Below, in pieces: positions 2,179 through 21,384 of a stretch of 21,567 nt of DNA. The stretch comes from Oscillospiraceae bacterium (GTDB taxonomy: Bacteria; Bacillota; Clostridia; Oscillospirales; Oscillospiraceae): contig JAFTGG010000031.1 in the NCBI GenBank assembly GCA_017458025.1, forward strand, positions 1-21,567, read 5' to 3'. A program made the translations under genes and the position numbers. The notes below the pieces were generated by a model. It saw only the letters and a program-made list of their open reading frames with translations. It did not search any database and was not told the DNA's origin. Within the stretch, counting starts at the first letter, position 1, and each line of letters opens with the position of its first letter.

Positions 2179-2895
2179 TTATCCCTTGTTCCGCATGCCG
2201 AAGTGCATCTCGCGCATGCCCTCGACCTCGTCGCAGATCGGCTTGAGGCTGCACGAGCCGCAGTCGGTCGGAAGGCCCTCCAGGATATGCGTCAGCGTCT
2301 TGGTGATGTCGTCGACCTTCTTCGCGGTCTTGGCGAGCTCCGCCACCACGGCGTTGTCCGTAATGAACACGATCTGCACGCGCTTGACGTGCTCATTTCT
2401 GTGATAACCCTTGATGTACGCCGCGCCGACGCGCTTAAAGTCGATGCCGCGCGACACCGCCGCCTTGCTCAGGCGCACCTGCTCTCGGTTGCTCTCCGAC
2501 GAAATGCGCACCATGTAGCCCTCGGGAAAGACGTGGTACTTGACGAACTCCATGTCGCGGATCGCCTGATAGGTCGCCTCGTCGTCGCCGCCAAGGTCGT
2601 CGACCAGCAGAAACGCGAGCCGCGCGAACGACACGTCGCCGTTCAGCTCCGGCAGATCCTTGCCGTAGAGCAGGATCTCGTCCTTCGGCACAAGGGCTTC
2701 GTCGCTCGTGACGCAGGTAAAGTTCGCCGACGGACATGAACCGCCGCCGAGCTCGAACGCCGCGTCGCGCATCATGACGAGCTCGCTCTCGCCCGTGTCG
2801 CGCCACGCATTCGCGGGATCATAGTCCCACTGCCGCGGCGCCGCGCCGTCGAGCTGGGCGCGGGTCGCGGTGATGATGTTGTTATACAGCTCCAT
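2179..2895 (-). CDS. Acetyl-CoA synthase (CdhC/AcsB)-like protein lacking a classical A-cluster region
   Basis: This 238-aa protein resembles, to my reading, the segment of acetyl-CoA synthase/CODH beta subunits that precedes the metal site: an ELGGG segment (about 48-52), an RISSESNREQ stretch matching the RVSK region, an internal IGxxL-like segment (150-165), and VKRVQIVFITD (170-180), close to the family's IEKIQVTIITD. The classical nickel-iron A-cluster motif (C-X2-C-X8-C-X9-C plus a later C-X-C) is absent. Instead the C-terminus carries C212-X2-C215-X5-C221, with C54 and C61 near the N-terminus; these could bind an iron-sulfur cluster. The ATG lacks a clear ribosome binding site and lies 5 bases after the stop of the small membrane protein, so coupled translation is likely. 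It is the last gene of the operon. Full acetyl-CoA synthase activity is unlikely; the role is unknown. Confidence 0.62.
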   Translation of the reverse strand: MELYNNIITATRAQLDGAAPRQWDYDPANAWRDTGESELVMMRDAAFELGGGSCPSANFTCVTSDEALVPKDEILLYGKDLPELNGDVSFARLAFLLVDDLGGDDEATYQAIRDMEFVKYHVFPEGYMVRISSESNREQVRLSKAAVSRGIDFKRVGAAYIKGYHRNEHVKRVQIVFITDNAVVAELAKTAKKVDDITKTLTHILEGLPTDCGSCSLKPICDEVEGMREMHFGMRNKG

Positions 2896-2900
2896 AAGCG

Positions 2901-3068
2901 CTAGAACTTGATATCCACGTTCTTGCGGTCGTGGATACGGTTGACCTGCGTGTAGACCCAGCCCAAAACCTTCTGGTCAAGGTTCCAGAAATACACGACG
3001 AACAGGACGCCCACGGCGGCAATGAGTACCTTCAGGATCGTCCAGAGGACTTTCAATACTTTTTTCAT
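2901..3068 (-). CDS. Small single-pass membrane protein, 55 aa
   Basis: The frame starts with MKKVLKVLWTILKVLIAA, continues with a hydrophobic stretch (about residues 7-28, rich in V, L, F and Y), and ends with a polar, basic tail (NRIHDRKNVDIKF). GGAGG lies 5 bases before the ATG, which strongly supports translation. The start has two lysines, so the tail may face outside or inside; topology is uncertain. A signal peptide is possible, but no clear cleavage site is visible. It lies between the activator and the acetyl-CoA-synthase-like gene, with 5 bases to the latter, so it belongs to the operon. I do not recognise a family. A short inverted repeat (3069-3090) includes part of its ribosome binding site. 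Confidence 0.75.
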   Translation of the reverse strand: MKKVLKVLWTILKVLIAAVGVLFVVYFWNLDQKVLGWVYTQVNRIHDRKNVDIKF

Positions 3069-3090
3069 AAAAACCTCCATTCAGGTTTTT
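3069..3090. repeat. Short hairpin overlapping a ribosome binding site
   Basis: AAAAACCT (3069-3076) and AGGTTTTT (3083-3090) are perfect arms with a 6-base loop. On the minus strand the GGAGG before the 55-aa gene lies in the loop and right arm, so folding could reduce its translation relative to the activator gene upstream. Confidence 0.45.
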
Positions 3091-3097
3091 CGTCTTT

Positions 3098-3898
3098 TTA
3101 GGCTGTCTTTTTGGCCTGGCCCTTCTGGCGGGCATACTCCGCCGCGCCGAGCGCGCCCATGAGCTGCGGGTCGGTCTTGAGCTCGACGACCTTGAGCTTC
3201 AAAACGTGCTCAATCGCCTGCTTCAGTCCGTCGTTCTTCGCGCAGCCGCCCGTCAGCGTGATGCTGTCCACCGCGCCGGCCTTTTTCGCCATGACGAAGC
3301 AGCGCTTGGCGACCGCCATCTGAATACCCGCCTCGATCTCGTCCATCGGCTTGCCCTCGCCGACGAGGGTGATGACCTCGGACTCCGCGAACACGGTGCA
3401 CTGCGCGGTGATGGGAATGACGTTCTTCGCGTTTAGGCTGAGCTTCGAGAACTCGGGCAGCGTCATCTCGAACGAGCGCGCCATCGCCTCGTAGAAGCGG
3501 CCCGTGCCGGCGGCGCACTTGTCGTTCATCGCGAAGTTCTTGACCGTGCCGTCGCTGTCGATGCTGATGCCCTTGACGTCCTGGCCGCCGATGTCGATGA
3601 TGGCCTTGACGTCGGGGTTCGTGATATGAACGCCCATAGCGTGGCAGGAGATCTCGGAGATGTTCTCGTCCGCGAACGGGACCTTGTTGCGTCCGTAGCC
3701 CGTACCGATCAGATACGCAAGCTCCTTGGAGTCCTTGAGCCCGGCCTTCTTGCAGACCTCCTCCATCGCGAGCGTCGCGCTCACCTCGGAGTTGATCTTG
3801 CTGCGAATGGTAGTGTCGGCAACGATCTTGCCGGTCTCGTCCAGAATGACCGCCTTGGTGTAGGTAGACCCTACGTCGCAACCGCCGTAATACTTCAT
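3098..3898 (-). CDS. 2-hydroxyacyl-CoA dehydratase activator (BadF/HgdC family ATPase)
   Basis: This 266-aa protein has the standard length of HgdC-type activators. It belongs to the ASKHA ATPase fold: phosphate-1 loop GCDVGSTYTK (6-15), phosphate-2 segment DIGGQDVKG (102-110) and adenosine-binding TGGCAKN (216-222). C128 (NDKCAAGTGRF) and C167 (AQCTVFAESEV) correspond to the two cysteines per subunit that bind the [4Fe-4S] cluster at the dimer interface. The family couples ATP hydrolysis to transfer of one low-potential electron onto the dehydratase, and is extremely oxygen-sensitive. The gene lies 109 bases after the 594-aa subunit, with a GGGGGAAAA ribosome binding site. The gap holds a TTTGCGC-GTCA-GCGCAAA hairpin (3977-3994) that may modulate its share of the operon transcript. 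Confidence 0.95.
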   Translation of the reverse strand: MKYYGGCDVGSTYTKAVILDETGKIVADTTIRSKINSEVSATLAMEEVCKKAGLKDSKELAYLIGTGYGRNKVPFADENISEISCHAMGVHITNPDVKAIIDIGGQDVKGISIDSDGTVKNFAMNDKCAAGTGRFYEAMARSFEMTLPEFSKLSLNAKNVIPITAQCTVFAESEVITLVGEGKPMDEIEAGIQMAVAKRCFVMAKKAGAVDSITLTGGCAKNDGLKQAIEHVLKLKVVELKTDPQLMGALGAAEYARQKGQAKKTA

Positions 3899-3976
3899 GA
3901 TATGTTTTCCCCCAAAAAATAGATTTTATATTTAGCCCCGCGTGGTCTCGCGCCCGCGGAGCGAAGCCCTTTTCGC

Positions 3977-3994
3977 CTTTGCGCGTCAGCGCAA
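3977..3994. repeat. Intercistronic hairpin
   Basis: TTTGCGC and GCGCAAA form a perfect 7-base stem with a 4-base loop, between the 594-aa subunit gene and the activator gene. On the minus strand it is preceded, not followed, by Ts, so it is not a good terminator for the operon. It could protect or separate transcript segments. Confidence 0.4.
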
Positions 3995-4007
3995 AAAACG
4001 AGTTGCC

Positions 4008-5792
4008 TTACCACGTCGCGTCATCTTCAAAATCAACCAGCGACGGATCGACGGGCGTCGCGCCCATGACGGTGTACATGAACTCGTTGATCTTGTCGCG
4101 CATGGCGCGGCGGGAAACGGTGCGCGGGTCCATCAGGTCGTGCTCGATCCAGACCATCTTGTAGTCCTTCTGCCGCGCCTGCTCGTCCAGCAGGCCCTGC
4201 AGCGTCGCCATGTTCTTGCACGCGACGTTCTGGTACATGAGGATCATATCGACCTTCCAGATCTCGCACTGCCGCCACAGCTCGTTGACGACGTTGTGAT
4301 AGCCGCCGTTGGTGTGACGGCGCATGACCATGCGCTCGTACAGGCGGGCGAGATCCTCCAGCGCTTTCTCCTTGTCCTCGGTCTCCAGCGGGCGGGTGAA
4401 GTTCAGGCTCTCCATCTCGACCAGCACGTCGACGCCCCAGCAGTTCGCGATCCAGTTGGTGAGGTTCGCGTAGTAGTGCGCCGGACACGACCAGACGATC
4501 GCGCGGTACTTCATCTTGCCGCGCCACGCCTCCTCGCGCTTCTCGTACGCCTGGAGCATGATCTTGTTGACCTTCTCGAAGGTCTTCATCACGCGCGGGT
4601 CCGCGCCGCCGTCCATCTCGTAGTTCCACTTGCGGAACAGCTCGTAGCACGGGCCGATCAGCTGCGGATACGGGGTCTGGTTGACCTCCCACTTCTGCAG
4701 CTCGTAGCTCGTTTCAAGGTTGAAGCGCTTGATGGTGTTGAAGTACGCCTCCCAGCTCCACTTCGCGCCGGTGGTCTCCTCGATGAACTTGATGCAGTGC
4801 TTGATGTCCTCCGCCGCGTCGGCGACGGTCTCCTCGTACTCATAGCGCACGGGGAAGGTCAGGTGGAACACGGGTAGGTCGGGGAAGCGGCGCTTTAAGT
4901 ACGAGGACGCCATAGTCGAGCCGTCGCAGGGCATCGAGCTGGAGATGAAGCACGCGCCCATGTGCGGCAGAGCGTCGGTGACGATCGCGCCGCACTCGGA
5001 GGACGGGACGGGGCAGGTGTCGGACGGGAGGCCGAAGCTCTCGACCGCGTCGATGTACGGCACGCAGGTGAGCTGGTCGACCTCGGACACGAGGAACACC
5101 GGCAGCAGTTGGTACGGCACGCCGAGAAGGTCCGGGAAGCCCGCCATGATCTGGCCCATCGTCATCTCGTCGAAAAGGACGACCTTCTTGTTGAGCTCCG
5201 TGGCGTTGCCGTTCTTCTGATCGCACTTCGCGAGGAACACGAGATTCTCCGCGACATAGCGGAAGATATCGTAGATCAGCAGATGGCTCATGCGGAGCGC
5301 GCTGCCGCGCTGGCCGAGCGTGTTCTTGTCCATGAACGAGTGCGCGCAGAAGTACGAGATCATCCAGCGGTAGTAGAGCGTCGCGTTCAGGGACGGGATC
5401 AGGTCCTTGCTGAACGTCCCGAGGAACATGCCCCACATGCGCAGCCACTCGTAGAAGTCGTAGGCGGTGTCGCCCACGCCGCGCCACTCGCGGCGGACGG
5501 TCGCCATGCAGCCGGAGCGGTAGAGCTTGCCGAGCTGCTTTTCGCCGTTCTTCAAGAGGTCGAGACGCTCCGCGTTCGACATGTTCTTGATCGCCTTCGC
5601 CTCGTCGGCGATGCGCTTGCCGGTGAGCGTCAGGTTCCTCTTATGGCGCGCGGCGACGGCGCTCCAATCGGTCTCGTCGAGCATATCCTTGATGATGCCG
5701 CCGACTTCCTTGAGGTTCTTGCCCTGCGCCTTCCAATCAATATGGTCCTTGTAGCGCCAGAACGAAGGATTCGGATATTTCGCCTTAGCCAT
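4008..5792 (-). CDS. 2-hydroxyacyl-CoA dehydratase family subunit, long form
   Basis: This 594-aa protein carries the HgdA/HgdB (PF06050-type) fold in roughly its last 360 residues. Cysteines suited to hold the [4Fe-4S] cluster are C260 (DTCPVPSSEC), C289 (SSSMPCDGS) and C525 (NVACKN). The end VWIEHDLMDP...RDKINEFM matches the typical family C-terminus. The first ~235 residues are an extension: classical HgdA is about 477 and HgdB about 380 residues. The ATG at 5790-5792 is preceded by AAGGAGG and overlaps the previous gene's stop (ATGGCTAA). A start eight codons earlier has no better support. It should form a heterodimer with the 404-aa subunit and receive electrons from the activator. The substrate is unknown; dehydration of a 2-hydroxyacyl-CoA or reduction of a difficult substrate are both possible for this superfamily. 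Confidence 0.88.
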   Translation of the reverse strand: MAKAKYPNPSFWRYKDHIDWKAQGKNLKEVGGIIKDMLDETDWSAVAARHKRNLTLTGKRIADEAKAIKNMSNAERLDLLKNGEKQLGKLYRSGCMATVRREWRGVGDTAYDFYEWLRMWGMFLGTFSKDLIPSLNATLYYRWMISYFCAHSFMDKNTLGQRGSALRMSHLLIYDIFRYVAENLVFLAKCDQKNGNATELNKKVVLFDEMTMGQIMAGFPDLLGVPYQLLPVFLVSEVDQLTCVPYIDAVESFGLPSDTCPVPSSECGAIVTDALPHMGACFISSSMPCDGSTMASSYLKRRFPDLPVFHLTFPVRYEYEETVADAAEDIKHCIKFIEETTGAKWSWEAYFNTIKRFNLETSYELQKWEVNQTPYPQLIGPCYELFRKWNYEMDGGADPRVMKTFEKVNKIMLQAYEKREEAWRGKMKYRAIVWSCPAHYYANLTNWIANCWGVDVLVEMESLNFTRPLETEDKEKALEDLARLYERMVMRRHTNGGYHNVVNELWRQCEIWKVDMILMYQNVACKNMATLQGLLDEQARQKDYKMVWIEHDLMDPRTVSRRAMRDKINEFMYTVMGATPVDPSLVDFEDDATW

Positions 5793-6999
5793 TGCTTGCC
5801 GCCTCCTTTTCACCGTGGATACGCTTGATCTCCAGCGACTCGACGAACGCCTGGAAGCGCGTGCGGAGCTGGCCGGAGGTGCGGGCGTTGTACGGGCGGT
5901 CGATGGACAGCACCGGCCAGCCGTATTCCTCGTTCATAATGTGGCTGACGAGCGCGCGCTCAAAGCCCCAATAGTCGCAGAACTTCATCTGCTCGTAAAT
6001 AAGGCCGTCCGCGTGGAACTTCTTTGCGAGCCGGTCCGCCGTATCGCGGCGCTGCTGGACCTTGTCGTCGGCGATATAGCGCGCGCACTCGGCGCTGCGC
6101 ATATAGTGCTCGCAGATCTGGGTCAGCACGTCGTCGGCGTCGTTGAGCTCGATGACCTCGCGGCCCGGCGTCGAGCCGTAGCAGTAGCGGTCGGACACGA
6201 CGAACGCGCCGGCCTCCTCGATCATCTTCGTGAGCGACGGATCGTCGATCTCGCTGCCGACGATGGCGACGCGCGCGCGGTACCACGGCTCGTCGTCGAC
6301 CTTGCGCTTTTTGATCTCCTCCAGCGTCTCGCGCAGCTTCGGGAGGATCAGGTACTTCGGACATACATAGGTTACGAGGTTGAGCACGTGGAACTCATAG
6401 CCCGTGATGGGCGGATTCTCCAGCGCGCGCAGCTCGCCGATCTCGGAGATGATCCTGCAAACCTCGTTGTGCTCCTCGACCGCCTTGCGCATCGCGGCGT
6501 CGGAGGTGTCGACGCCGTAGTTATCCTCCATGTAGTTGAGCAGGCGGTGGCGCATCTGCTTAACGTACTGCCGGATCGTGTAGTCCTCGACCTTGAAGGG
6601 AACGTCGACATGCGTGACAAACATCTTCGGCTTCGTGTTGAGCTTTAAAAGCTCAAAGTGCTCGTAGAAGCGGTTCATCATCGAACATGCGTCCACGCCG
6701 GCGAGGCCGTCGAGGAAGTTGTAGCCGCCCTCGATGCCGCGTTCGAGCAGCGCGCGGGCAAATTCGCAGGTGTAGTTCGACATGTAGTACGTCGCCATGT
6801 CGATCGACCCTGTCCTCGGCGCGCGCAGACGCACGGAGAAGCAGTTGCCCAGATTGAGCAGCACCTCGGGAATGTGGTAACAGGTGTAGCCGATGGCGAG
6901 CTTGCCCTCCGCCTGCGCCTGCTGTACCAATTCGTTGTTCGCTTCCTCGAGCAGGTTCTCAAAGTAGATCATGTGCTTGAGATCCTTCAAATGGTACAC
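5785..6999 (-). CDS. 2-hydroxyacyl-CoA dehydratase family subunit, HgdB-like
   Basis: This 404-aa protein has typical HgdB length and architecture. It opens with GYTCYHIPEVLL (37-48), where C40 is the expected first cluster ligand. C105 (GVDACSMMN) and C341 (QMKFCDYWG) fit the other two, and the C-terminus LSIDRPYNARTSGQ...RFQAFVESLE is the family end signature. The cluster would be one half of the radical (ketyl) dehydration site. I kept the GTG at 6997-6999, which has AAAGGAAAAGGG directly upstream and lies 10 bases after the CooC-like stop. An ATG nine codons later (6972) preceded by GAAGGAT is an alternative. The stop overlaps the next gene's start by 8 bases, which suggests coupled synthesis of the two subunits in equal amounts. 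Confidence 0.9.
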   Translation of the reverse strand: MYHLKDLKHMIYFENLLEEANNELVQQAQAEGKLAIGYTCYHIPEVLLNLGNCFSVRLRAPRTGSIDMATYYMSNYTCEFARALLERGIEGGYNFLDGLAGVDACSMMNRFYEHFELLKLNTKPKMFVTHVDVPFKVEDYTIRQYVKQMRHRLLNYMEDNYGVDTSDAAMRKAVEEHNEVCRIISEIGELRALENPPITGYEFHVLNLVTYVCPKYLILPKLRETLEEIKKRKVDDEPWYRARVAIVGSEIDDPSLTKMIEEAGAFVVSDRYCYGSTPGREVIELNDADDVLTQICEHYMRSAECARYIADDKVQQRRDTADRLAKKFHADGLIYEQMKFCDYWGFERALVSHIMNEEYGWPVLSIDRPYNARTSGQLRTRFQAFVESLEIKRIHGEKEAASNG

Positions 7000-7009
7000 C
7001 CCTTTTCCT

Positions 7010-7762
7010 TTAGACTTGTAGCTTATCGAGCGCTTGCCGCGCCCCTTGGATCACGTTGGAATCGTCGGGCAGTTCAAATACGCTTTTGCCCTGCACGTCG
7101 TTTTTCGCGTGCTGCGCGTCCGCCCCGATGACCGCGAGGACCGGCGCGCCCGCAATGTCGGGATCGGCGATCAGCTCCGGCCGCGTCGCCCGATTGATGA
7201 CGACGCCGCATTTCTCATACATCACCAGCTCGTCCGCCACCTTTTTGATGGTGCCGATGACCTGATAGCCCTTGCGGCTCTGGTCCGTGATGAGCAGCAG
7301 GTGCGTCACCTTTTCCATCACGCGGCGGTTGATCTGCTCGATGCCGGCCTCGCCGTCGATGACGACGTAGTCGAACTCCCCCGCCAGCAGGCTGATGACT
7401 TCTTTTAAGTAGCCGTTCACCGTGCAGTAGCAGCCCGCGGTCTCGGGCCGCCCGATAGCGAGGAACGCGAAGCCGCGCGTCTCGACCATCGAATCAAAGA
7501 GCCGGAACCGCGCCTCGGCGATCAGCTCGTCGGGGTTGGTCTTGGTCGCGTCGTTCGCGAGCGACTTTCGGATATCGTCCAGCGTCTCCGTCACCTCGAC
7601 GCCCAACGCCGTGGAGAGCCCCACGGCGGGGTCCGCGTCAATGGCGAGGATCTTTGAGTCCGGATACTGCTCCGTGAGCAGCCGCAGCACCGCCGCCGAG
7701 ACGGACGTTTTCCCGACGCCGCCCTTTCCCGCGACAGCTATGATCTTTGCACGCAATGGCAT
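7010..7762 (-). CDS. CooC-like nickel-associated P-loop ATPase
   Basis: This 250-aa MinD/CooC-type protein has a deviant Walker A GKGGVGKTS (12-20), the AIDADPAVGLSTALG switch segment (40-54) and a Walker B-like VVIDGEAG (133-140). C111-Y-C113 in GRPETAGCYCTVNG matches the nickel-binding C-X-C motif of CooC, which inserts nickel into CO dehydrogenase or acetyl-CoA synthase. It is the first gene of the operon. The ATG at 7762 is only one base from GGAGGG; a TTG two codons downstream (7756) has much better spacing and may be the true start. The open frame reaches to 7852 but would cover the promoter. No CODH gene is in the window, so its client is unclear; the operon's acetyl-CoA-synthase-like protein is a candidate. 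Confidence 0.88.
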   Translation of the reverse strand: MPLRAKIIAVAGKGGVGKTSVSAAVLRLLTEQYPDSKILAIDADPAVGLSTALGVEVTETLDDIRKSLANDATKTNPDELIAEARFRLFDSMVETRGFAFLAIGRPETAGCYCTVNGYLKEVISLLAGEFDYVVIDGEAGIEQINRRVMEKVTHLLLITDQSRKGYQVIGTIKKVADELVMYEKCGVVINRATRPELIADPDIAGAPVLAVIGADAQHAKNDVQGKSVFELPDDSNVIQGARQALDKLQV

Positions 7763-7799
7763 CCCTCCAATAACCCCATTATGCCAATATGACACTGTG

Positions 7800-7828
7800 A
7801 TTGTACCATAAAGCCGCGGCTTTGACAA
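7800..7828 (-). promoter_or_regulatory. Promoter of the dehydratase operon
   Basis: Read leftward, TTGTCA (7823-7828) and TACAAT (7800-7805) are 17 bases apart, a near-consensus vegetative promoter. Almost the whole spacer and the edge of the -35 box is a perfect 14-base palindrome, described separately. Confidence 0.75.
7810..7823. promoter_or_regulatory. Palindromic putative operator
   Basis: AAAGCCGCGGCTTT is a perfect palindrome between the -35 and -10 boxes of the leftward promoter. A dimeric regulator bound here would block RNA polymerase. No regulator gene lies in the window, so its binder is unknown. Confidence 0.5.
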
Positions 7829-7846
7829 CAGGATTTTAGACATTTC

Positions 7847-7862
7847 CAACAACTTTTTGTTG
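7847..7862. promoter_or_regulatory. Second inverted repeat in the divergent promoter region
   Basis: CAACAA (7847-7852) and TTGTTG (7857-7862) flank CTTT, and the right arm overlaps the -35 box of the rightward promoter. This could be a second operator controlling the flavoprotein gene. Confidence 0.4.
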
Positions 7863-7888
7863 CTTCATGTCGACGCGTATGCTACAAT
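7860..7888 (+). promoter_or_regulatory. Promoter of the flavoprotein gene
   Basis: TTGCTT (7860-7865) and TACAAT (7883-7888) are separated by 17 bases. Transcription would begin near 7895, about 43 bases before the ATG at 7938. Confidence 0.7.
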
Positions 7889-7937
7889 ATGCTTAGTTTA
7901 GTATGCTTTTACCAATCTAAGGAAGAGAGGACAAACC

Positions 7938-10211
7938 ATGAAAACAGACGCATTGGTACAGCAGCTGATCGACAGCTACGGCAATTGGTTTGAAGCGAAC
8001 TCCGAAAACCGCGCCGGCGGCGCCGCGCGCATGACGCAGGAGCTCTACCCCTACGACCATATCTTCTCCCCCATTCAGATCAATAAGCTCAAGGTGAAAA
8101 ACCGCCTCGTCATGGCGCCGATGGGCAACTGCCAGATGGCGGAGGAAACGGGGCGCCCGAACCAGAAGATGCTCTCGTACTTCTTCGCGCGCGCCGAGGG
8201 CGGCATCGGGCTCCTCACCACGGGCCTCATCCCCATCAGCCACCACATCGACTCGTCCGTCACCGAGAAGGGCAACTTCTCTTACTTCCCGCGCATCGAC
8301 GGCACGCGCACGAACTTCATGGGCTGGCGCGACCTCGCGCAGGGCGTGCACGCCCGCGGCAGCCGCATCTTCATCCAGCTGACGCCGGGCCTCGGCCGCG
8401 TCGGCAATCCGCAATGTCTTCTGACCAAGTACCAACTGCCGGTCTCCGCGTCGTGGAACCCGAACTTCTACCTGCCCGACGTGCCCTGCCGTCCGCTGCT
8501 CGACGTCGAGTGCGACAAGATCATCAAAAACGCCGGCCAGGCGGCGATGGACGCCAAGGTCATGGGCATGGACGGCGTGTATCTGCACGGACACGAGGGG
8601 TATCTGCTCGACCAACTGACCTCGCCCGCGTTCAACCGCCGCAAGGCGGGCAAGTACGCCGATTGGCAGCGCTTCGGCATCGACCTCATCAAGCAGATCC
8701 GCAAGAAGGTCGGCCCCTACTTCCCGATCATGTACCGCATCGACCTGTCCCTCGCGCTGAACGAGACCTACGGCAAGCGCATGGAGACGGTCAAGAGCCT
8801 CAAGGGCTTCCAGAACGGCCGCACGGTCGCGGACACGCTCAACTACATGGAAAACCTCGTCAAGGCGGGCGTCGATATGTTCGACGTCGACCTCGGCTGC
8901 TACGACAACTGGTGGCTGCCGCATCCGCCCGCGGGCATGCCGGCGGGCTGCTTCCTCGACGTCAGCAAGGTCGTGAAGGAGTATTTCGCGGCGCGCGGCG
9001 TCAAGTCCAACGTCGGCGTGGACGTGCCCATTGTCGCGGTGGGCAAGCTCGGCTACCCCGACCTCGCGGAGCAGGCGCTGCGCGACGGCAAGTGCGACAT
9101 GGTCATGCTGGGCCGCCCGATTCTCGCCGACCCCGAGTGGGCGAACAAGGCGTACGCGGGCAAGGTCAGCGAGATCCGCCCCTGCATCGGCTGTCAGGAG
9201 GGCTGCGTCAACGAGTTCGTCGAGGGCGGGCATCCCCAGTGCGCCGTCAACCCGCGCACCGGCTTCGAGGAGATCGTGCCGCGCAGCTTCCCGAAGGCGG
9301 AGGTCAGCAAACGCATCGCCGTCGTCGGCGGCGGGTGCAGCGGCATGAACTTCGCCCTCGTTGCGGCGAGCCGCGGGCACAAGGTCGATATCTACGAGAA
9401 GGACGACAAGCTCGGCGGCAAGCTGTGGGCCGCGTCCACGCCGATGGTCAAGTACGACATGATGAACTACACCAAATGGCTCATCGCGCAGGTCGAAAAG
9501 GCCGAGGGCGTGACGGTGCATCTCAAGAAGGCCGTGGACAACAAGTTCCTCAAAAAAGAGAAGTTCGACGCGGTCGTCTACGCCGGCGGCGCGCAGGGCA
9601 GCGAGAAGCTGCCGCCGATCCCCGGCATCACGGACGTCAAGACCGTCGAGGGCACCGACCTGCTGGTCAAGCCGGAGCTACTAGACGGCGCGAAGAAGGT
9701 CGTCGTCATCGGCGGCGGCGCGGTGGGGCTGGAGACCGCCTATTGGCTGCAATATGAGCGCAAGTGCGACGTCACCGTCGTCGAAATGCTCCAATACATG
9801 ATCGACGGCGCGTGCACCGCGAACCGCGGCCACCTCATCCACTACTTCGAGGAGGCGGGCGGCAAGCTCATCAACTGCGCGAAGGTCGTCGGCTTCGGCG
9901 CGAACAACTCGGTCAAGATCGAGCGCAACATCTCCAAGGGCGTGCCCGATCCGTACTGCACCTGGACGCCGATCATCCCGAAGAACGTCGAAAACCCGCT
10001 TGCGCCCAAGATGGGTCCCGAGAGCCTGATCGAGACGCTTCCCAGCGACCTCATCGTGCTCTGCATGGGCCGCGCCGCGAACGACGAGCCGTACTACAAG
10101 GCGGTCGAGGAGCGCGTCGCGCCCGAGATCTACAACATCGGCGACTCGCTGCAGGCGGGCAATCTGCTCACCGGCAATCGCGCCGCGTGGCACACCGCCG
10201 CGAAGATCTGA
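7938..10211 (+). CDS. Old Yellow Enzyme/2-enoate reductase-type flavoprotein
   Basis: This 757-aa cytoplasmic enzyme has the three-part architecture of 2-enoate reductase, 2,4-dienoyl-CoA reductase (FadH) and the bile-acid enzymes BaiCD/BaiH. The FMN-binding TIM barrel (about 40-400) includes NRLVMAPMGN and HGHEGYLLDQLTSPAFNRR. Then comes a [4Fe-4S] motif C416-X2-C419-X3-C423-X11-C435, an FAD-binding VVGGGCSGMN segment (about 460), and an NAD(P)H-binding VVVIGGGAVGLE segment (about 590). It would pass hydride from NAD(P)H through FAD, Fe-S and FMN to an activated double bond. It is longer than the usual ~670 residues, with a ~35-residue N-terminal addition and an expanded barrel region. A GAGAGGA ribosome binding site precedes the ATG. 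Divergence from the dehydratase operon suggests it reduces that enzyme's product. Confidence 0.92.
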   Translation: MKTDALVQQLIDSYGNWFEANSENRAGGAARMTQELYPYDHIFSPIQINKLKVKNRLVMAPMGNCQMAEETGRPNQKMLSYFFARAEGGIGLLTTGLIPISHHIDSSVTEKGNFSYFPRIDGTRTNFMGWRDLAQGVHARGSRIFIQLTPGLGRVGNPQCLLTKYQLPVSASWNPNFYLPDVPCRPLLDVECDKIIKNAGQAAMDAKVMGMDGVYLHGHEGYLLDQLTSPAFNRRKAGKYADWQRFGIDLIKQIRKKVGPYFPIMYRIDLSLALNETYGKRMETVKSLKGFQNGRTVADTLNYMENLVKAGVDMFDVDLGCYDNWWLPHPPAGMPAGCFLDVSKVVKEYFAARGVKSNVGVDVPIVAVGKLGYPDLAEQALRDGKCDMVMLGRPILADPEWANKAYAGKVSEIRPCIGCQEGCVNEFVEGGHPQCAVNPRTGFEEIVPRSFPKAEVSKRIAVVGGGCSGMNFALVAASRGHKVDIYEKDDKLGGKLWAASTPMVKYDMMNYTKWLIAQVEKAEGVTVHLKKAVDNKFLKKEKFDAVVYAGGAQGSEKLPPIPGITDVKTVEGTDLLVKPELLDGAKKVVVIGGGAVGLETAYWLQYERKCDVTVVEMLQYMIDGACTANRGHLIHYFEEAGGKLINCAKVVGFGANNSVKIERNISKGVPDPYCTWTPIIPKNVENPLAPKMGPESLIETLPSDLIVLCMGRAANDEPYYKAVEERVAPEIYNIGDSLQAGNLLTGNRAAWHTAAKI

Positions 10212-10455: not shown

Positions 10456-12222
10456 GTGAAAAAAATATTTCGTCTGTTTTCGTTTTTCATCGCCGCGGCG
10501 CTTGCCGCCGCGCTCGCCGCGCCGTGCGCGTCGGCGGCGTACTACGAGCCGTTCGACCACCCCGACGTCGCTTACGCCGACATGGCGTACGCCGGAGTCG
10601 ATTTGGACGCCGTTGCCGCGTTTTGCGAGCGCTTTGCGCAAGACCCCGTCGGGCAATATCCCGCGCTGCTCGATCTCTACGACGAGGTCTACACGCAGAA
10701 TGAACTCGCATACATTCGCATGTGCCGCAACGCAGGCGACGGAGAGCTCGCCGCGGCGTGTGAACAGGCAGAGTCGGACTTCTCCTACGCTTCGGACGCG
10801 ATCTACCTCGCGCTCAGCGAGGCGCTGGACGGCCCGCAGGGCGACGCGCTTCGCGAGCTGATGCCCGAGGGCGAAGCGGAGGGCTTCGCCGGCTACGAGC
10901 CGACGCCCGCGGACGCGTTCGACGCATCGGCGGAGGAAGCCGCGCTGATCCGGCAGTACTATCTGCTGCCCGACGACCGCAATTTTGCGGACGCGGCGGC
11001 GGAGCTGTATCTGCAGCTCGCGGCGCTGCGCCGCGACGAAGCGGAGCGCGCCGGCTTCGACAGCTATCCCGAATACGCCTACGCCTACTTCTATGCGCGG
11101 GAGTACGCGCCCGAGGACGCGCGGCAACTGCGGCGCGTCGTCAAGTCGACGCTCGCGCCGCTTTACGTCCGCTGTCTCTACGCGCTGTACGAGTTCGATC
11201 CCGCGTGGGACGACGAGCCGGCCCCTGACACAGAGGAGTTGCTGGACGCCATCGGCTCGCGCATCGGCGATATTTCGCCGGAGCTGACGGAGGCGTTCGA
11301 CTTTCTGCGCCGGAACGGGCTCTACTGCATCGGCGAGGGCGACGCGCTGTTCGACATGGGCTACACCACGGCGCTTCCCGCCTACCGCTCCGCGTTTTTG
11401 TTCAACAAGGTCGACGCCCGCTACAGCGCGTTCAAGGACACCGTCCACGAGTTCGGGCACTTCAACGCCGCCTATCACGATCCCACGCCGATGCTCTACC
11501 AATACGGCAATATGGACGTGAGCGAGATCCAATCGCAGGGGTTGGAGCTGCTGTTTCTTCCCTATTTGCAGGAGTTTCTCGCCGGCGACGATCCGGACGG
11601 GCGCGGCGCCGTCACGCTCGCCGCCGTCTCGGACATACTCGGCTCCGTCGTGGACGGCTGCCTGTACGACGAGTTCGAGCAGGCGGTCTACGCCGACCCC
11701 GCCATGACGGTCAAGGAATTGCACGCGCTTGAAGCCAGACTCAATCACGAATACGGGCTCGACTCGATCAGCGGCGGCGAGCCGTATTGGGTCTATATCA
11801 CGCACCTGTTCGAGCAGCCCTGCTACTACATCTCCTACGCGGCCTCGGCGCTGCCCGCGCTGGACATCTGGCTGCGGTCGTCGGACGACCGCGACGCGGC
11901 GGTGGATACCTACATGAAGGTCTCCGCCGCACGCACGGACGCGTGGTTCTTCGACGTGCTCTACGACAACGGGCTCTGCGACCTCACCGACCGCGGAGAC
12001 TTGACGCGTCTCGCGCAAAGGCTGGAGCAGCAGCTCGATCCGCTGCTTCAAAGCGTTCCCGCCGCACACGCTCCCATTTGGGTCTGGGGCGTCGCGGGCG
12101 CGGCGGTTCTTTTGTGCGCGGGGCTTGCATTTTCCCGAAAAAGGTGTAGAATCGCCGCAGAAAGAGAGAGGGGACCCTGCTATGCCCACAACAGCGAAAA
12201 CGACGGCGAAGAAATCGAATAA
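10456..12222 (+). CDS. Secreted, membrane-anchored M3-like metallopeptidase
   Basis: This 588-aa protein has a signal peptide (KK, then a hydrophobic core, about residues 1-28) and a C-terminal membrane segment (about 536-555) followed by a basic tail. The catalytic domain therefore sits outside the cell. The zinc motif is HEFGH (331-335), and SEIQSQ (356-361) provides the probable third ligand E357, 26 residues after the first histidine. This spacing and the E-x-x-S-Q pattern fit oligoendopeptidase F/thimet (M3) enzymes, though the rest is divergent. The GTG start at 10456 has GGAGGT upstream. Its last 41 bases overlap the L,D-transpeptidase gene in another frame. A peptidase anchored at the surface next to a wall crosslinking enzyme suggests peptide turnover at the cell envelope. 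Confidence 0.8.
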   Translation: MKKIFRLFSFFIAAALAAALAAPCASAAYYEPFDHPDVAYADMAYAGVDLDAVAAFCERFAQDPVGQYPALLDLYDEVYTQNELAYIRMCRNAGDGELAAACEQAESDFSYASDAIYLALSEALDGPQGDALRELMPEGEAEGFAGYEPTPADAFDASAEEAALIRQYYLLPDDRNFADAAAELYLQLAALRRDEAERAGFDSYPEYAYAYFYAREYAPEDARQLRRVVKSTLAPLYVRCLYALYEFDPAWDDEPAPDTEELLDAIGSRIGDISPELTEAFDFLRRNGLYCIGEGDALFDMGYTTALPAYRSAFLFNKVDARYSAFKDTVHEFGHFNAAYHDPTPMLYQYGNMDVSEIQSQGLELLFLPYLQEFLAGDDPDGRGAVTLAAVSDILGSVVDGCLYDEFEQAVYADPAMTVKELHALEARLNHEYGLDSISGGEPYWVYITHLFEQPCYYISYAASALPALDIWLRSSDDRDAAVDTYMKVSAARTDAWFFDVLYDNGLCDLTDRGDLTRLAQRLEQQLDPLLQSVPAAHAPIWVWGVAGAAVLLCAGLAFSRKRCRIAAERERGPCYAHNSENDGEEIE

Positions 12223-13606
12223 GGTCCTCCCTGTCGCGCTCGGCGTTCTGGGCGCGGCGCTCGCGCTGTACCTCGGCTTCGCCGCGTGGCTGCGCGTCGA
12301 CGGGCGTTTCCCGTTCCACACCGTGCTCAACGGGCGCGACGTGTCGCTCCGGCGCGCGCTGGACGTGCAGCAGACGGTCATGGACGGCTTCTACCCGAAC
12401 ATGGCGTTTACCATTGAGGGGCGGGACGCGCAGACTTATCAGGTCGCGCCGTCGTCCTTTGATTTCTCCGACGCCGAGCGCGCCGTCGACTTTCTGCCGC
12501 GCAGCACGCTCGCGTGGCCCGCGTCGCTGTTCGGCGGCACGGCGTATACGACCGCGGACGGCGGCGCCATCGGCAAGCTGGCGCGGCGGATCGAATCGGA
12601 GTTCCCCGCGTTCCGCGATACGCGCGCGGCGCAAAACGCGTATCTGCGCTACGACGCCGAGCGCGGCGGCTTCGCCGTCGTGCCCGACGCCGGCGGCACG
12701 GAGATCGACGCGGCGAAATTCGAGACCGCGCTGGAGAATCATATCCGCTATGGCAGCGGCACGTTCGACCTTGACGCCGCAGGCGTCTACCGCGCCGCCG
12801 ATATCACCGTGTACTCGCCCGAGCTGGTCGAAGCCTATGACAGGCTGAACCGTTTCCTTGACGCGACGGTCGTTTACAGCGAGGGCGAAGTCACGAAAAC
12901 CTTCGAGGCGCGCATGCTCGCGCCCTACCTTACCGTGTCGCGCGACACGTTTGCGATCCGCTGCGACACCGCTTCCGCCGCGGCGGACGGCGTGTTCGAC
13001 GCGTTCGCCGCGGAGCTGGCGGAGGCGTTTGACTCTTCCGGTATCGCGCGCGACTTCATCACGCACGACGGCGAGACCGTCACCGTCACGGAAAAGACGT
13101 GGCGGGCAAGGCTCGACCGCGCGGCGACCGCCGCGGCCCTCGCCGCGCTTACCTTCGACGAGCTTGCCGCCGCGGACGGCCCTGTCTCCGGCGAATTTGT
13201 CTGGGAAAAGGCGCCGCTCGACCGGCTCAGGAGCTATGTCGAGATCGACCTCGCCAATCAAATGCTTTACCTTTACACCGACGGCGAGCTCATGCTGGAA
13301 ACGCCCATCGTCTCCGGCAATATGGCGGCGCGGCATGGCACGCCGGCCGGCGCGTTCTCGCTCATCGGGAAATACCGCAACGTCACGCTGCGCGGGCCGG
13401 ATTACGCGAGCTTCGTGCGCTATTGGATGCCGTTCAACAACAAGATCGGCATGCATGACGCAAGCTGGCGCAGCCGCTTCGGCGGCACGATCTACCGAAC
13501 GAACGGCTCGCACGGCTGCGTCAATATGCCCCGCGCCGCGGCGGAGCAGTTGTACGAGACCATCGACGATACTTACGCCGTTGTCTGTTATTGGCGCGAG
13601 GCATAA
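12182..13606 (+). CDS. L,D-transpeptidase (YkuD family) with peptidoglycan-binding-type region
   Basis: This 474-aa protein begins with a short basic segment and a single membrane anchor (about residues 15-36). A long middle region (about 50-340) resembles the paired peptidoglycan-binding-4 domains found in clostridial enzymes of this type. The YkuD catalytic domain follows (about 350-474): H425 in GMHDASW, then NGSHGCVNMP with the catalytic C446. It would form 3->3 crosslinks in peptidoglycan or attach other groups to it, outside the membrane. I chose the ATG at 12182, which has AGAGGGGA upstream; it lies inside the end of the peptidase gene, so the two are co-transcribed and probably coupled. 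A strong terminator follows at once. Confidence 0.93.
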   Translation: MPTTAKTTAKKSNKVLPVALGVLGAALALYLGFAAWLRVDGRFPFHTVLNGRDVSLRRALDVQQTVMDGFYPNMAFTIEGRDAQTYQVAPSSFDFSDAERAVDFLPRSTLAWPASLFGGTAYTTADGGAIGKLARRIESEFPAFRDTRAAQNAYLRYDAERGGFAVVPDAGGTEIDAAKFETALENHIRYGSGTFDLDAAGVYRAADITVYSPELVEAYDRLNRFLDATVVYSEGEVTKTFEARMLAPYLTVSRDTFAIRCDTASAAADGVFDAFAAELAEAFDSSGIARDFITHDGETVTVTEKTWRARLDRAATAAALAALTFDELAAADGPVSGEFVWEKAPLDRLRSYVEIDLANQMLYLYTDGELMLETPIVSGNMAARHGTPAGAFSLIGKYRNVTLRGPDYASFVRYWMPFNNKIGMHDASWRSRFGGTIYRTNGSHGCVNMPRAAAEQLYETIDDTYAVVCYWREA

Positions 13607-17823: not shown

Positions 17824-18525
17824 TCAGACCAAGCCGCTTTCTTCGCTTTGTCCCATGCGTTCCAGCGCGTCCCGCGCCGCCATCTGCTCCGCCTCTTTCT
17901 TGCTGCGGCCGCTGCCTTCTCCGGCAAACGCGCCGTTGAGCAGCACCGAGATGGTGAAGGTCTTGTCGTGGTCGGGGCCGCTCTCGCCGGTCAGTTGGTA
18001 GCGCAGCGCCTGATTGGGGCTGCGCTGCACGAACTCCTGCAGCGCGGTCTTGTAGTCGCGCCGGCGCTCCACCATACGCTCCTCCGTCACCTCGTTGAGC
18101 AGTACGCGGTGAATGAGCGCGCTTGCCGGCTCAATGCCGCCGTCAAGATAGACCGCGGCGATGACCGCCTCGGTAGCGTCCGCCAGGATCGACGGGCGCT
18201 CGCGTCCGCCGCCCGCCTCCTCGCCGTGGCCGAGGCACAGGTAGCGCCCCAATCCGATGCGCTTGGCGATCTCATAGAGGCTGCCCTCGCACACAAGGCG
18301 CGCGCGGATACGCGTCAGCTCGCCCTCCGGCGCGTCGGGGTGCTCCCGAAAGAGGAACTCTGCCGTCACGAAGCCGAGCACACTGTCACCCAGAAATTCG
18401 AGCCGCTCGTTGCTGACCGCTTCGTCGCCGCGGTGCTCGTTGGCGTATGAGCTGTGACGCAGCGCCTCACGCAGCAGCGCCTCATTTTTAAATCGGTAGC
18501 CCAGCGCTTCCTCCAGCTCCCGCAT
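17824..18525 (-). CDS. rnc: Ribonuclease III
   Basis: This 233-aa endonuclease cuts double-stranded RNA, including rRNA precursors. The catalytic signature NERLEFLGDS (39-48) supplies E43 and D47, and ILADATEAVIAAVYLDGG supplies the second acidic pair. A double-stranded RNA-binding domain fills about 155-228 (DYKTALQEFVQ ... SKKEAEQMAARDAL). I chose the ATG at 18523-18525 because GGAGGAGGAG lies just upstream; a TTG nine codons earlier lacks this. It follows acpP, with a terminator between them, so expression may depend on readthrough. Confidence 0.96.
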   Translation of the reverse strand: MRELEEALGYRFKNEALLREALRHSSYANEHRGDEAVSNERLEFLGDSVLGFVTAEFLFREHPDAPEGELTRIRARLVCEGSLYEIAKRIGLGRYLCLGHGEEAGGGRERPSILADATEAVIAAVYLDGGIEPASALIHRVLLNEVTEERMVERRRDYKTALQEFVQRSPNQALRYQLTGESGPDHDKTFTISVLLNGAFAGEGSGRSKKEAEQMAARDALERMGQSEESGLV

Positions 18526-18560
18526 CGGCTCCTCCTCCTTTCGTATCGCCAAAAAAGAAC

Positions 18561-18584
18561 GACGCCCCGCGCGGGCGGGGCGTC
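18561..18584 (-). terminator. Terminator between acpP and rnc
   Basis: GACGCCCCGC and GCGGGGCGTC form a perfect 10-base stem with a 4-base loop. On the minus strand it is followed by GTTCTTTTTT. It lies 5 bases after the acpP stop codon. Confidence 0.85.
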
Positions 18585-18589
18585 TTGTA

Positions 18590-18835
18590 TCAGGTGAGCC
18601 TGCCGCTTAAGAATTTCACGCAGTCGCCCACAGTCTTGAGCTGCGCAAGGTCGTCCTCCTGAATCTCGTCGAGATTGAACTCCTCCTCCATCGCCATCAC
18701 CAGCTCCACAAGGTCGACGGAATCTGCGCCGAGATCGTCCGTGAACGAACTTGCCATCGTGATCTCATCTTTGTCCAGCGCAAACTGTTCCGCAATCAAG
18801 GTCTGCAGCGTGCTGAAAATCTCCTCCGGGGTCAT
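18590..18835 (-). CDS. acpP: Acyl carrier protein
   Basis: This 81-aa acidic protein carries growing acyl chains in fatty acid synthesis. DDLGADSVDLVEL includes S39, the serine that receives 4'-phosphopantetheine. GGAGGAGAG precedes the ATG at 18833-18835; the longer open frame upstream crosses the promoter and is not coding. It has its own promoter and terminator between plsX and rnc, which suits its high demand. Confidence 0.96.
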   Translation of the reverse strand: MTPEEIFSTLQTLIAEQFALDKDEITMASSFTDDLGADSVDLVELVMAMEEEFNLDEIQEDDLAQLKTVGDCVKFLSGRLT

Positions 18836-18883
18836 AATGCTCTCTCCTCCTAGACGGGTGTTGCATAAATCTGGTATGCCTGC

Positions 18884-18912
18884 ATCGTACAACAAAGCAT
18901 ATGCTGTGTCAA
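18884..18912 (-). promoter_or_regulatory. Promoter of acpP
   Basis: Read leftward, TTGACA (18907-18912) and TACGAT (18884-18889) are 17 bases apart. The spacer contains the 10-base palindrome AGCATATGCT (18896-18905). It does not resemble the known FapR operator. Confidence 0.7.
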
Positions 18913-18942
18913 GAGCCTTTCGCAAAAAATGTCACAAAACCG

Positions 18943-19980
18943 TCACCCTGCGTTTCCCGTGCGGTCGAGGCGCATTTTGTCGATGTCCCGCGCGATGTCG
19001 TCGGCGATGCCGCTGCGCGCAACCTCCGCCGCCTGACGCACCGCGTTGCAGAACGCCATGTCGTTCGACGAGCCGTGCGCCTTGACGACGGGCTTCGAGA
19101 TGCCGAGCAGCGCCGTGCCGCCGACCTCGTTGGGGTCGAGCGTCTTTTTAAAGTCCCTGAGCCCGCCCTTTAAGAGCAGCGCCGCGGCCTTTGTGCCCGC
19201 GTTTTTCATCAGCATGCCCTTGAGCATGCCGCCCATCAGCTTGCCCGCGCCCTCGACGCTTTTGAGCATGACGTTGCCGGAAAAGCCGTCCGCGACGATA
19301 ACGTCGCACTGACCCAGCAGCGCTTCCTTCGCCTCCACGTTGCCCACGAAATTGAGGTCGCCGCGCTTGTGCGCCTCCCTGAGCTTCGCGTTCGTCTCGC
19401 GGCGGAGCGCGTCGCCCTTCTCCTCCTCCGCGCCGATGTTGAGCAGGCCCACGCGGGGCTTTGCGACGCCGAGCACCTTGGAGGCGTAATAGCTGCCGAG
19501 GTAGGCGAATTGCAGCAGGTACTCCACCGTGCACTCCGCGTTCGCGCCGCAGTCGAGCAGCACGGCGCGTCCGGTTGCGGTCGGGATCGTCGGCGCGAGC
19601 GCCGCGCGGCGCAGGCCGCGGATACGCTTGACGACCAGCGTCGCGCCCGCGAGCAGCGCGCCGGTGCTGCCGGCGGAAACAAAGCCGTCCGCCTCGCCGT
19701 TTTTCACCATGTTAAGCCCGACGGTCAGCGACGAGTCGGGCTTCCTCTTGAACGCCGTCGCGGGGTCGTCCGCGATCTCGACCACCTCATTCGCGTTGCG
19801 GACGGTGATCCCGTCGGGCAGCGCGGTCTTGCCCGTTTCGCGCAGCGCGTCCAAGATCGCGTCCTCGCGCCCGACGAGGACGAGCTCCACGTCGGGGTAC
19901 TTCTCGCGCGCGAGCAGCGCGCCCTTTACGGGCGCAAGGGGCGCGAAATCGCCGCCCATCGCGTCGATGACAATTTTCAT
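18943..19980 (-). CDS. plsX: Phosphate acyltransferase PlsX
   Basis: This 345-aa enzyme converts acyl-ACP to acyl-phosphate for phosphatidic acid synthesis at the membrane. It starts MKIVIDAMGGDFAPLAPVKG, and shows VSAGSTGALLAGA (about 101-113), ADGFSGNVMLKSVEG (about 230-244) and VGGTALLGISKPVVKAHGSS near the C-terminus, all characteristic. AAAGGAG lies 6 bases before the ATG. It follows trmFO by 30 bases and precedes acpP, a common lipid gene pairing. Confidence 0.97.
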   Translation of the reverse strand: MKIVIDAMGGDFAPLAPVKGALLAREKYPDVELVLVGREDAILDALRETGKTALPDGITVRNANEVVEIADDPATAFKRKPDSSLTVGLNMVKNGEADGFVSAGSTGALLAGATLVVKRIRGLRRAALAPTIPTATGRAVLLDCGANAECTVEYLLQFAYLGSYYASKVLGVAKPRVGLLNIGAEEEKGDALRRETNAKLREAHKRGDLNFVGNVEAKEALLGQCDVIVADGFSGNVMLKSVEGAGKLMGGMLKGMLMKNAGTKAAALLLKGGLRDFKKTLDPNEVGGTALLGISKPVVKAHGSSNDMAFCNAVRQAAEVARSGIADDIARDIDKMRLDRTGNAG

Positions 19981-19992
19981 CGTTACTCCTTT

Positions 19993-20009
19993 AATGGGGA
20001 ATCCCCATT
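19993..20009. repeat. Small palindrome between trmFO and plsX
   Basis: AATGGGGAATCCCCATT is a perfect 17-base inverted repeat centred on one base. It fills most of the 30-base gap and ends close to the plsX ribosome binding site. Confidence 0.5.
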
Positions 20010-20010
20010 T

Positions 20011-21384
20011 TCAGTAAAGTTCTTTTTGCATACTTTTTCTTTCAAGAAAAAGTATGTCGGACATGACCTCGTCATGCATGGCGTCGATGATCTCCAGCGA
20101 GCGCTTCGACAGCTCCGCGTTCTTGTTGCGCTTGCCCTTGACGCGGTAGCCCAGCGGCGGAATGATGCCGAAGTTGACGTTCATCGGCTGGAAGTCCGTC
20201 ACGCTTCGGTTGCTGACATACAGCCCCAGCGCGCCGATGGCGGTCTCCCGCGGGAAATCGAGCGGCGCTTTGCCCTCGAGCCGCCGCGCCAGCTCCACGC
20301 CGGCAAGAAAGCCGGACGCCGCCGACTCGACGTAGCCCTCCACGCCGGTCATCTGCCCCGCGAAGGCAATGCGCTTGTCGGCAATCAGCCGGTAGTAGCG
20401 GTCGAGCAGGCGCGGGGAATCGAGATAAGTATTGCGGTGCATCACGCCGTAGCGCACGAACTCAGCATCGTGCAGCGCGGGGATCATGGAAAAGACGCGC
20501 TTCTGCTCCGGAAAACGCAGGTGCGTCTGGAAGCCGACGAGGTTGTAAACGCTGCCGTCCTTGTTGTCGCGGCGCAGCTGCACCACGGCGTAGGGCTCGC
20601 GCCCCGTCCCGGGGTCCTTCAAGCCGCGCGGCTTGAGCGGGCCGTAACAGAGCGTGTCCCGCCCGCGCCGCGCCATGACCTCGACCGGCATGCAGCCCTC
20701 GAACACGTTCTTGTCCTCGAAGCCGTGCACCGGCGCTTCCTCCGCCGTCGTCAGCGCCTCCCAGAACGCAAGGTACTCCTCCTCGGTCATCGGGCAGTTT
20801 ACATAATCCGCCGTCCCCTTGTCGTAGCGCGAGGCGAACCACGCGCGCTCCATATCGACGCTCTCGAAGGTCACCAGCGGCGCGGCGGCGTCGAAGAAAT
20901 GCAGGGTGTTTCCCGCGTCGTCCCCGCCGCCGATTTTCTTCGCGATGGCGTCCGCCAGCGCGTCGCTCGTCAGCGGGCCGGAGGCGACGAGGACTTCTCC
21001 CTCCGCGGGCAGCTCCGTCACCTCGCCGCCCACGACGGCGATATTCGGGTGGCTGCGCACGCGTTCGGTCACGAGCCGCGCAAAGCCGTGGCGGTCGACG
21101 GCGAGCGCGCCGCCGGCTTCGACGCGCGTTTCGTCCGCGCATTGCAGAATGAGCGAGCCGAGGCGGCGCATTTCTTCTTTCAGCAGCCCCACCGCGTTCT
21201 CAAGCTGGTCGGAGCGCAGGGAGTTGGAGCAGCAAAGCTCCGCGAAATCGTCGGTCACATGCGCCGGAGTGCGCTTTTGCGGCTTCATCTCGCAAAGCGT
21301 GACGTTCACGCCGCGCCGCGCCATCTGCCACGCCGCCTCGCTGCCAGCGAGGCCCGCGCCGATGACGGTCACTTGATTGCTCAT
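20011..21384 (-). CDS. trmFO: Folate-dependent tRNA (uracil-54) methyltransferase TrmFO
   Basis: This 457-aa flavoprotein makes ribothymidine at position 54 of tRNA using methylenetetrahydrofolate. The FAD-binding VIGAGLAGSEAAWQMA (7-22), ELCCSNSLRSD (49-59) containing the conserved cysteine, and FQPMNVNFGIIPPL near residue 405 identify it. The start overlaps the upstream stop (ATGA), and GGAG precedes it. The last ~14 codons contain a perfect palindrome (20029-20056) and encode FLERKSMQKELY, which looks like an added tail rather than family sequence. Confidence 0.96.
   Translation of the reverse strand: MSNQVTVIGAGLAGSEAAWQMARRGVNVTLCEMKPQKRTPAHVTDDFAELCCSNSLRSDQLENAVGLLKEEMRRLGSLILQCADETRVEAGGALAVDRHGFARLVTERVRSHPNIAVVGGEVTELPAEGEVLVASGPLTSDALADAIAKKIGGGDDAGNTLHFFDAAAPLVTFESVDMERAWFASRYDKGTADYVNCPMTEEEYLAFWEALTTAEEAPVHGFEDKNVFEGCMPVEVMARRGRDTLCYGPLKPRGLKDPGTGREPYAVVQLRRDNKDGSVYNLVGFQTHLRFPEQKRVFSMIPALHDAEFVRYGVMHRNTYLDSPRLLDRYYRLIADKRIAFAGQMTGVEGYVESAASGFLAGVELARRLEGKAPLDFPRETAIGALGLYVSNRSVTDFQPMNVNFGIIPPLGYRVKGKRNKNAELSKRSLEIIDAMHDEVMSDILFLERKSMQKELY
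20029..20056. repeat. Perfect palindrome inside the trmFO 3' end
   Basis: CATACTTTTTCTT (20029-20041) and AAGAAAAAGTATG (20044-20056) are perfect 13-base arms with a TC spacer. AT-rich composition contrasts with the GC-rich gene around it. It resembles a short intergenic palindromic repeat that has entered the end of the reading frame. Confidence 0.65.

Follow-up and report, generated by a model that had tools for sequence, protein, structure and literature searches.

The 21,567-nt contig JAFTGG010000031.1 of an Oscillospiraceae bacterium (assembly GCA_017458025.1; this whole stretch is called the window below) carries a leftward operon of six genes, encoding a CooC-like ATPase, a small (SSU) and a large (LSU) subunit of the HGD-D family, an HgdC-type activase, a short hydrophobic peptide and a CdhC-like protein related to acetyl-CoA synthase (ACS). 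On balance, we lean slightly towards reading this system as an ATP-dependent, low-potential reductase of the HGD-D/BcrC/DCCP superfamily with a CooC–CdhC accessory module for a metal, perhaps nickel, that serves several enzyme pairs. Seven reading frames, six leftward and one divergent, were verified at or near the positions first assigned to them, and the arrangement described in the initial annotation, six leftward genes facing a 757-aa reductase, was borne out in both its frames and their family relations. With the favoured starts, the CooC and SSU genes lie 10 bases apart, the SSU and LSU genes overlap by 8 bases, and 109, 29 and 5 bases separate LSU from activase, activase from peptide, and peptide from the CdhC-like gene, respectively; the six genes form a single operon.

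The subunit pair resembles the benzoyl-CoA reductase core

Both subunits match HGD-D (PF06050), with 308 and 125 bits against a cut-off of 28.4. The SSU (404 aa; positions 5785–6999, minus strand) carries six cysteines, C40, C78, C105, C273, C305 and C341, which map onto the ligands of the [8Fe-9S] double-cubane cluster of BzdN, positions also used in DCCP, and each of which is kept in 59 of 59 frames of at least 380 aa. The LSU (594 aa; 4008–5792, minus strand, with 5792 as its most likely start) joins a helical N-terminal extension to an HGD-D core in which C267, C296 and C532 (P0003 numbering) are cysteine in 64, 64 and 63 of 64 frames of at least 500 aa. These three match the site of the active-site [4Fe-4S] cluster of BzdO (C95/C128/C380) and, in one alignment, all align with cysteines of MbdO as well. 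The three candidate cluster cysteines previously assigned to each subunit stand for the LSU, but the SSU has six. Cysteines were counted on all frames long enough (59/67 for the SSU, 64/78 for the LSU and 80/80 for the CdhC-like protein), and the alignments were chosen subsets: 28 of 2632 matches in A1 (the query and 27 taken from the 120 matches listed), 39 sequences in A4 and 32 in A5. The protein search with the LSU scored 7997 candidates. In a separate search addressing its fold, the ten strong matches begin at residue 132–174, so that the N-terminal extension is unmatched there.

Among solved structures the SSU is closest to BzdN (121.7 bits, versus 79.7 for HadC), and its score against the BzdN model TIGR03190 is 86.3 bits, below the cut-off of 453.8. 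Against the DCCP equivalog NF040772 (cut-off 350 bits), SSU and LSU reach 145.2 and 42 bits, both below threshold. In these searches of PDB and NCBIfam, no characterised enzyme proved a near match for either subunit. For 2-hydroxyacyl-CoA dehydratases, the literature describes a single [4Fe-4S] cluster on each subunit (PMC11574389). By its cysteine pattern, the SSU/LSU pair appears to be built like the benzoyl-CoA reductase core BzdNO rather than like a 2-hydroxyacyl-CoA dehydratase.

The name "radical dehydratase" in the initial annotation is not supported by this comparison: the SSU shows the six-cysteine pattern of BzdN and DCCP, the operon proteins include no CoA-transferase, and a classical hgd-like cluster sits elsewhere in the genome. 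The six-cysteine mapping downgraded a plain 2-hydroxyacyl-CoA dehydratase as a candidate, and the predicted enzyme should instead be labelled a double-cubane-type reductase. The hgd-like cluster, on contig C126, comprises two HGD-D subunits and an activase found by search, together with a decarboxylase alpha subunit and a CoA-transferase recognised by eye.

The gene set is conserved and co-occurs across genomes

A scan of genome contigs yielded 222 relatives, of which the best 80 were kept. Their record titles name Oscillospiraceae, Lachnospiraceae, Butyrivibrio, Mogibacterium, a Spirochaetaceae bin and others, and the carriers include Butyrivibrio XPD2006 and NC2007 (L058, L098), whose titles are not marked as metagenome-assembled genomes. 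Gene order is conserved. Where 6.5 kb or more of sequence precedes the CdhC-like gene on its upstream side (43 loci), 31 loci contain CooC, SSU, LSU, activase and peptide; the other 12 comprise three full sets without a detected peptide, six with CooC alone, one with CooC and activase, one with CooC, activase and peptide, and one with the peptide alone. CooC is present in 42 of the 43.

The initial annotation had named a failure to co-occur across genomes as what would refute its proposal; when this was put to the test, the genes were found together. In a family sample of 200 genomes, 17 encode the CdhC-like protein with its cysteine tail and 20 the LSU, and all 17 tailed CdhC-like genomes have the LSU. 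The three LSU genomes lacking a tailed CdhC-like gene are G480 (88% complete, with a tailless paralogue only), G468 (80%) and G485 (85%). In a class sample of 291 genomes, CdhC-like protein and LSU occur in an identical five genomes from four families. CooC, at E values up to 1e-40, marks the same 8 of 81 genomes. The earlier proposal of a distinct system that has its own CooC-like and ACS-like proteins is thus sustained by the kept order and the co-occurrence of its genes. The Fisher values computed for this co-occurrence take no account of common descent among the genomes.

These counts include exclusions set after the scores had been seen. For the CdhC-like protein in the family sample, the count fell from 19 to 18 on dropping G455, which has a 708-aa ACS-type frame (E 9e-10), and to 17 on setting apart G480, where the tailless 216-aa paralogue is the sole match. 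For the LSU, G293, G313 and G471 (partial matches of 38–58 bits in 431–452-aa frames) were removed from the family sample, from 23 to 20, and G031, G069, G096 and G210 (36–53 bits) from the class sample, from 9 to 5. In the family sample the next genome scored 168 bits at best, and in the class sample 575.

The 18 CdhC-like genomes (G480 included) hold one to seven LSU matches each, with a median of 3.5 when contig-cut pieces are included; CdhC-like matches number one in 16 of them and two in the other 2. The host genome itself has three SSU/LSU pairs but a single close activase; beyond it, activase matches in the host are limited to a 42%-identical one in the hgd-like cluster of C126. Because one module stands against several LSU pairs, CooC, the CdhC-like protein and the activase look like a shared service module. 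The two further host pairs lie on the short contigs C154 (L009) and C280 (L010), which carry no activase.

An HtpG/Hsp90 gene lies near the operon in 14 of the 80 loci (for example L090:2412-4418; one was checked with Pfam, the rest assigned by clustering), and its product is perhaps a chaperone for assembly.

The proposed accessory proteins are related to CooC and acetyl-CoA synthase

The CooC-like ATPase (250 aa; 7010–7762, minus strand) is a CbiA/MinD-type protein whose top NCBIfam scores, all under cut-off, are to MinD models. It bears the deviant P-loop (GKGGVGKT) and the C-X-C motif (GCYC) of the CooC/AcsF nickel ATPases, and all 52 CooC neighbours of full length have GCYC. Its best PDB match is CooC itself (3kje, E 9.3e-14), with CYC aligned to CYC, which corroborates the annotated C-X-C-bearing, CooC-like ATPase. 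The frame reaches back to a TTG at 7852, probably too early a start; most relatives begin at the methionine equivalent to 7762.

The CdhC-like protein (238 aa; 2179–2895, minus strand) scores 27.7 bits against PF03598 (cut-off 24). It is a stand-alone ACS middle domain, with the same fold, followed by a C-terminal C-X2-C-X5-C tail whose C212, C215 and C221 are present in 80 of 80 loci. The kinship to ACS behind the earlier term "CdhC-like fragment" holds, specified now as a middle domain plus cysteine tail with no A-cluster domain. A second CdhC-like subfamily of 216–217 aa lacks the tail (L135:7098-7751 in G331, L118 and L120); in G331 the tailless gene adjoins a DUF389 gene.

No match to the carbon monoxide dehydrogenase (CODH) family PF03063 was found in the host genome (G000, 89% complete), nor in G369. 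Four of the 18 CdhC-like genomes, G480 included, have such a match, PF03063 also covering hybrid cluster proteins. As no match turned up in the 89% complete host, CODH maturation is disfavoured as the task of CooC there.

The activase (266 aa; 3098–3898, minus strand) passes the TIGR00241 cut-off (211.2 versus 125.4 bits), which settles its annotated identity as an HgdC-type activator; it has both cysteine motifs, as do 51 of the 57 neighbours of full length. The peptide (55–59 aa; 55 aa at 2901–3068, minus strand) belongs to no family and has a conserved tail near NLDQK and DRK..DIKF. Its description as a membrane protein holds as far as one hydrophobic stretch, the membrane helix being recognised by eye only. 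A small hydrophobic peptide with a similar tail (cluster c9; L058:1873-2088, L010:271-450) lies beside paralogous SSU/LSU pairs in 12 of the 80 loci.

Proposed mechanism

By analogy with BzdNO, the activase would hydrolyse ATP and pass electrons to the SSU/LSU heterodimer, where a putative [8Fe-9S] double-cubane cluster on the SSU may store them and hand them on to a putative [4Fe-4S] cluster on the LSU, the presumed site of substrate reduction. The conserved ligands are observed; the electron route is taken from the BzdNO architecture. Most probably, CooC supplies the CdhC-like protein with a metal, plausibly nickel, or passes the metal on through it; the CdhC-like protein would then mature or service the reductase, and a single CooC–CdhC module could serve several SSU/LSU pairs per cell. 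The small hydrophobic peptide suggests membrane attachment, and the enoate/BaiCD-type flavin reductase that is a frequent neighbour may handle an adjoining step. The earlier idea that an unusual or redox-inert substrate is reduced gains in strength.

Weighing nickel and the alternative explanations

The type of CooC, the kinship to ACS and the precedent of the isr operon (discussed below) point towards nickel by analogy. In its boldest form, this would make the system a new nickel-dependent class, in which nickel passes from CooC through the ACS-like protein to SSU/LSU to give an ATP-driven Ni/Fe-S double-cubane reductase, with one module for substrate-specific paralogues. We regard this form as unlikely, because the nickel ligands of ACS are missing, an AcsF lineage of CooC is not established and the motifs could also serve iron-sulfur clusters.

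Several observations weigh against nickel, or against the accessory-module reading as a whole. The CdhC-like protein ends past C-X2-C-X5-C and contains no A-cluster domain, no four-cysteine motif and no nickel-binding CGC; its tail was modelled at a confidence (predicted local distance difference test) under 50, and its C61 is present in 72 of 80 loci, thus not universal. In BzdO, the catalytic His131 follows the second cysteine at a distance of two or three residues; the LSU has no histidine there in either alignment register, having CDGS instead, with S299 in 64 of 64 frames, and in fold it is as near to HadB as to BzdO, or nearer. We know of no report that DCCP or benzoyl-CoA reductase needs CooC or an ACS-like protein, and the cluster type does not force an accessory role for the CooC–CdhC pair. 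The argument for AcsF rather than CooC1 was withdrawn, since both reference CooC genes of G455 adjoin ACS-type frames: the operon CooC scores 133 bits (35%) against the one beside a single ACS-type frame and 64 bits (28%) against the one between CODH and another such frame. A nickel clue from a histidine-rich gene on contig C12 also proved weak, as it occurs at 1 of 10 CooC loci by histidine count.

The two loci just named hold further details. In G455, a single CODH locus (L134, on C29) combines two different CooC genes with a pair of ACS-type frames of 708 and 717 aa, recognised by motif and lying on opposite strands; these ACS-type frames carry C-X2-C-X8-C-X9-C plus CGC. On the host contig C12, a CooC paralogue (L016:4905-5666; 58–59% identical) is followed by the very histidine-rich small protein (5536-6003) and by NfnAB-like genes, with labels assigned by eye. 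By the histidine-count criterion, no such gene lies beside the same-genus orthologue of this paralogue.

That CooC and the CdhC-like protein handle iron-sulfur instead of nickel, assembling, repairing or reducing the double-cubane or active-site cluster, is possible, if somewhat improbable. CooC would then act as an ApbC/NBP35-like carrier or a NifH-like reductase, and the CdhC-like protein as a [4Fe-4S] scaffold or a donor to the activase. The C-X-C motif and the conserved cysteine tail suit iron-sulfur chemistry, the A-cluster nickel ligands are missing and the client has a six-cysteine [8Fe-9S]-type site; against this, the solved structure nearest to CooC is a CODH/ACS accessory protein, and DCCP and benzoyl-CoA reductase, to our knowledge, lack such partners. 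We consider it very doubtful that the CdhC-like protein is instead a substrate handler, binding CoA or acyl-CoA and presenting it to the LSU: it does share the fold of the ACS middle domain, which is reported to interact with CoA in the CODH/ACS of C. autoethanogenum (PMC12289521), yet this role leaves the pairing with CooC and the conserved tail unexplained, and one module beside several LSU paralogues better suits a general service.

A variant (R)-2-hydroxyacyl-CoA dehydratase feeding an enoate reductase is quite unlikely, given the six-cysteine SSU and its greater nearness to BzdN than to HadC, the lack of a CoA-transferase among the operon proteins and the separate hgd-like cluster (labelled in part by eye). 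Finally, CooC and the CdhC-like protein both resemble CODH/ACS parts in a host where no CODH-family gene was found, as role-less remnants of a lost CODH/ACS operon would; the order kept across Oscillospiraceae, Lachnospiraceae, Mogibacterium and Spirochaetaceae-bin records, the conserved cysteines and the close co-occurrence make such decay barely credible.

Comparison with known systems

Class I benzoyl-CoA reductases (BzdNO/MbdON) share with the operon two HGD-D subunits, a six-cysteine small and a three-cysteine [4Fe-4S] large one, and an HgdC/BcrAD-type activase. Unlike BzdNO, the operon has one activase gene, a helical LSU extension and no His131 counterpart, adds CooC, the CdhC-like protein and the peptide, and encodes an SSU far below the BzdN model cut-off. 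DCCP and DCCP-R likewise have six ligand cysteines and an activase partner, whereas the operon has a second, catalytic-type subunit and accessory genes, and its SSU falls well short of the DCCP model. HgdAB, HadBC and FldBC share superfamily, activase and LSU fold, but the operon SSU has six rather than three cluster cysteines and no CoA-transferase accompanies it. A CooC-type ATPase beside an ACS-related protein with the middle-domain fold recalls CooC/AcsF with ACS; here, in contrast, no CODH was found, the A-cluster domain is missing and C-X2-C-X5-C replaces C-X2-C-X8-C-X9-C plus CGC. The isoprene reductase operon isr of Acetobacterium wieringae, as described, also combines an anaerobic reductase with nickel chaperones and no ordinary nickel enzyme, but these are HypA and HypB, not CooC, and the operon has only the oxidoreductase, HypA, HypB and a ferredoxin (PMC10134865).

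A search of titles and abstract openings in the open-licence literature, with subscription papers outside its scope, found no description of the six-gene set, and papers on MCR activation, the mlp cluster, the Calderihabitans CO transcriptome, the ACS alcove and gut metalloenzymes (a review) contain no link to it. The system is a real, conserved one with an architecture of known kind, that of a double-cubane, activase-driven reductase, and the CooC–CdhC accessory pair is, within this limited search, apparently undescribed. A multi-copy rumen and gut family of this cluster layout tied to CODH/ACS-type proteins would open up a new group of reductions in the gut and offer a test of whether this enzyme family has come to involve nickel or a maturation route of its own. 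If the enzyme were a nickel reductase, gut and rumen bacteria could use it to respire with, or to reduce, unsaturated or aromatic compounds that are otherwise inert.

The divergent flavin reductase and neighbouring genes

The divergent gene (757 aa; 7938–10211, plus strand) encodes an Oxidored_FMN protein whose nearest models are those for BaiCD and bilirubin reductase, with scores far under their cut-offs (306 bits for BaiCD model NF041087, cut-off 825), in keeping with its annotation as an Old Yellow Enzyme-type reductase. Flavin reductases occur in 27 of the 80 loci by cluster, and in 22 of the 41 with enough flank; 11 of the 27 lie directly behind the CdhC-like gene, 8 are divergent beside CooC and 8 are elsewhere. 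The close relative L022 has a different gene at this position, G202 has the module and no PF00724 match, and of three PF00724 matches in the host genome, one lies at the operon. The flavin reductase is an optional partner. The 175-base divergent gap between it and CooC (7763–7937) is real, but its proposed role as a shared promoter region gains little from the sole sigma-70-like site (7828–7800, minus strand), which, with 0.5 such sites expected, does not rise above chance.

In the stretch of the window from 13.8 to 17.7 kb, the frames that were tested gave no Pfam match. Other neighbouring frames (392–1504, 1578–2027, 12125–13606 and 17824–21384) match, by Pfam, an EamA transporter, DUF2992, a YkuD transpeptidase domain and RNase III, as well as a phosphopantetheine-binding protein, PF02504 (PlsX-like) and a GIDA-family gene.

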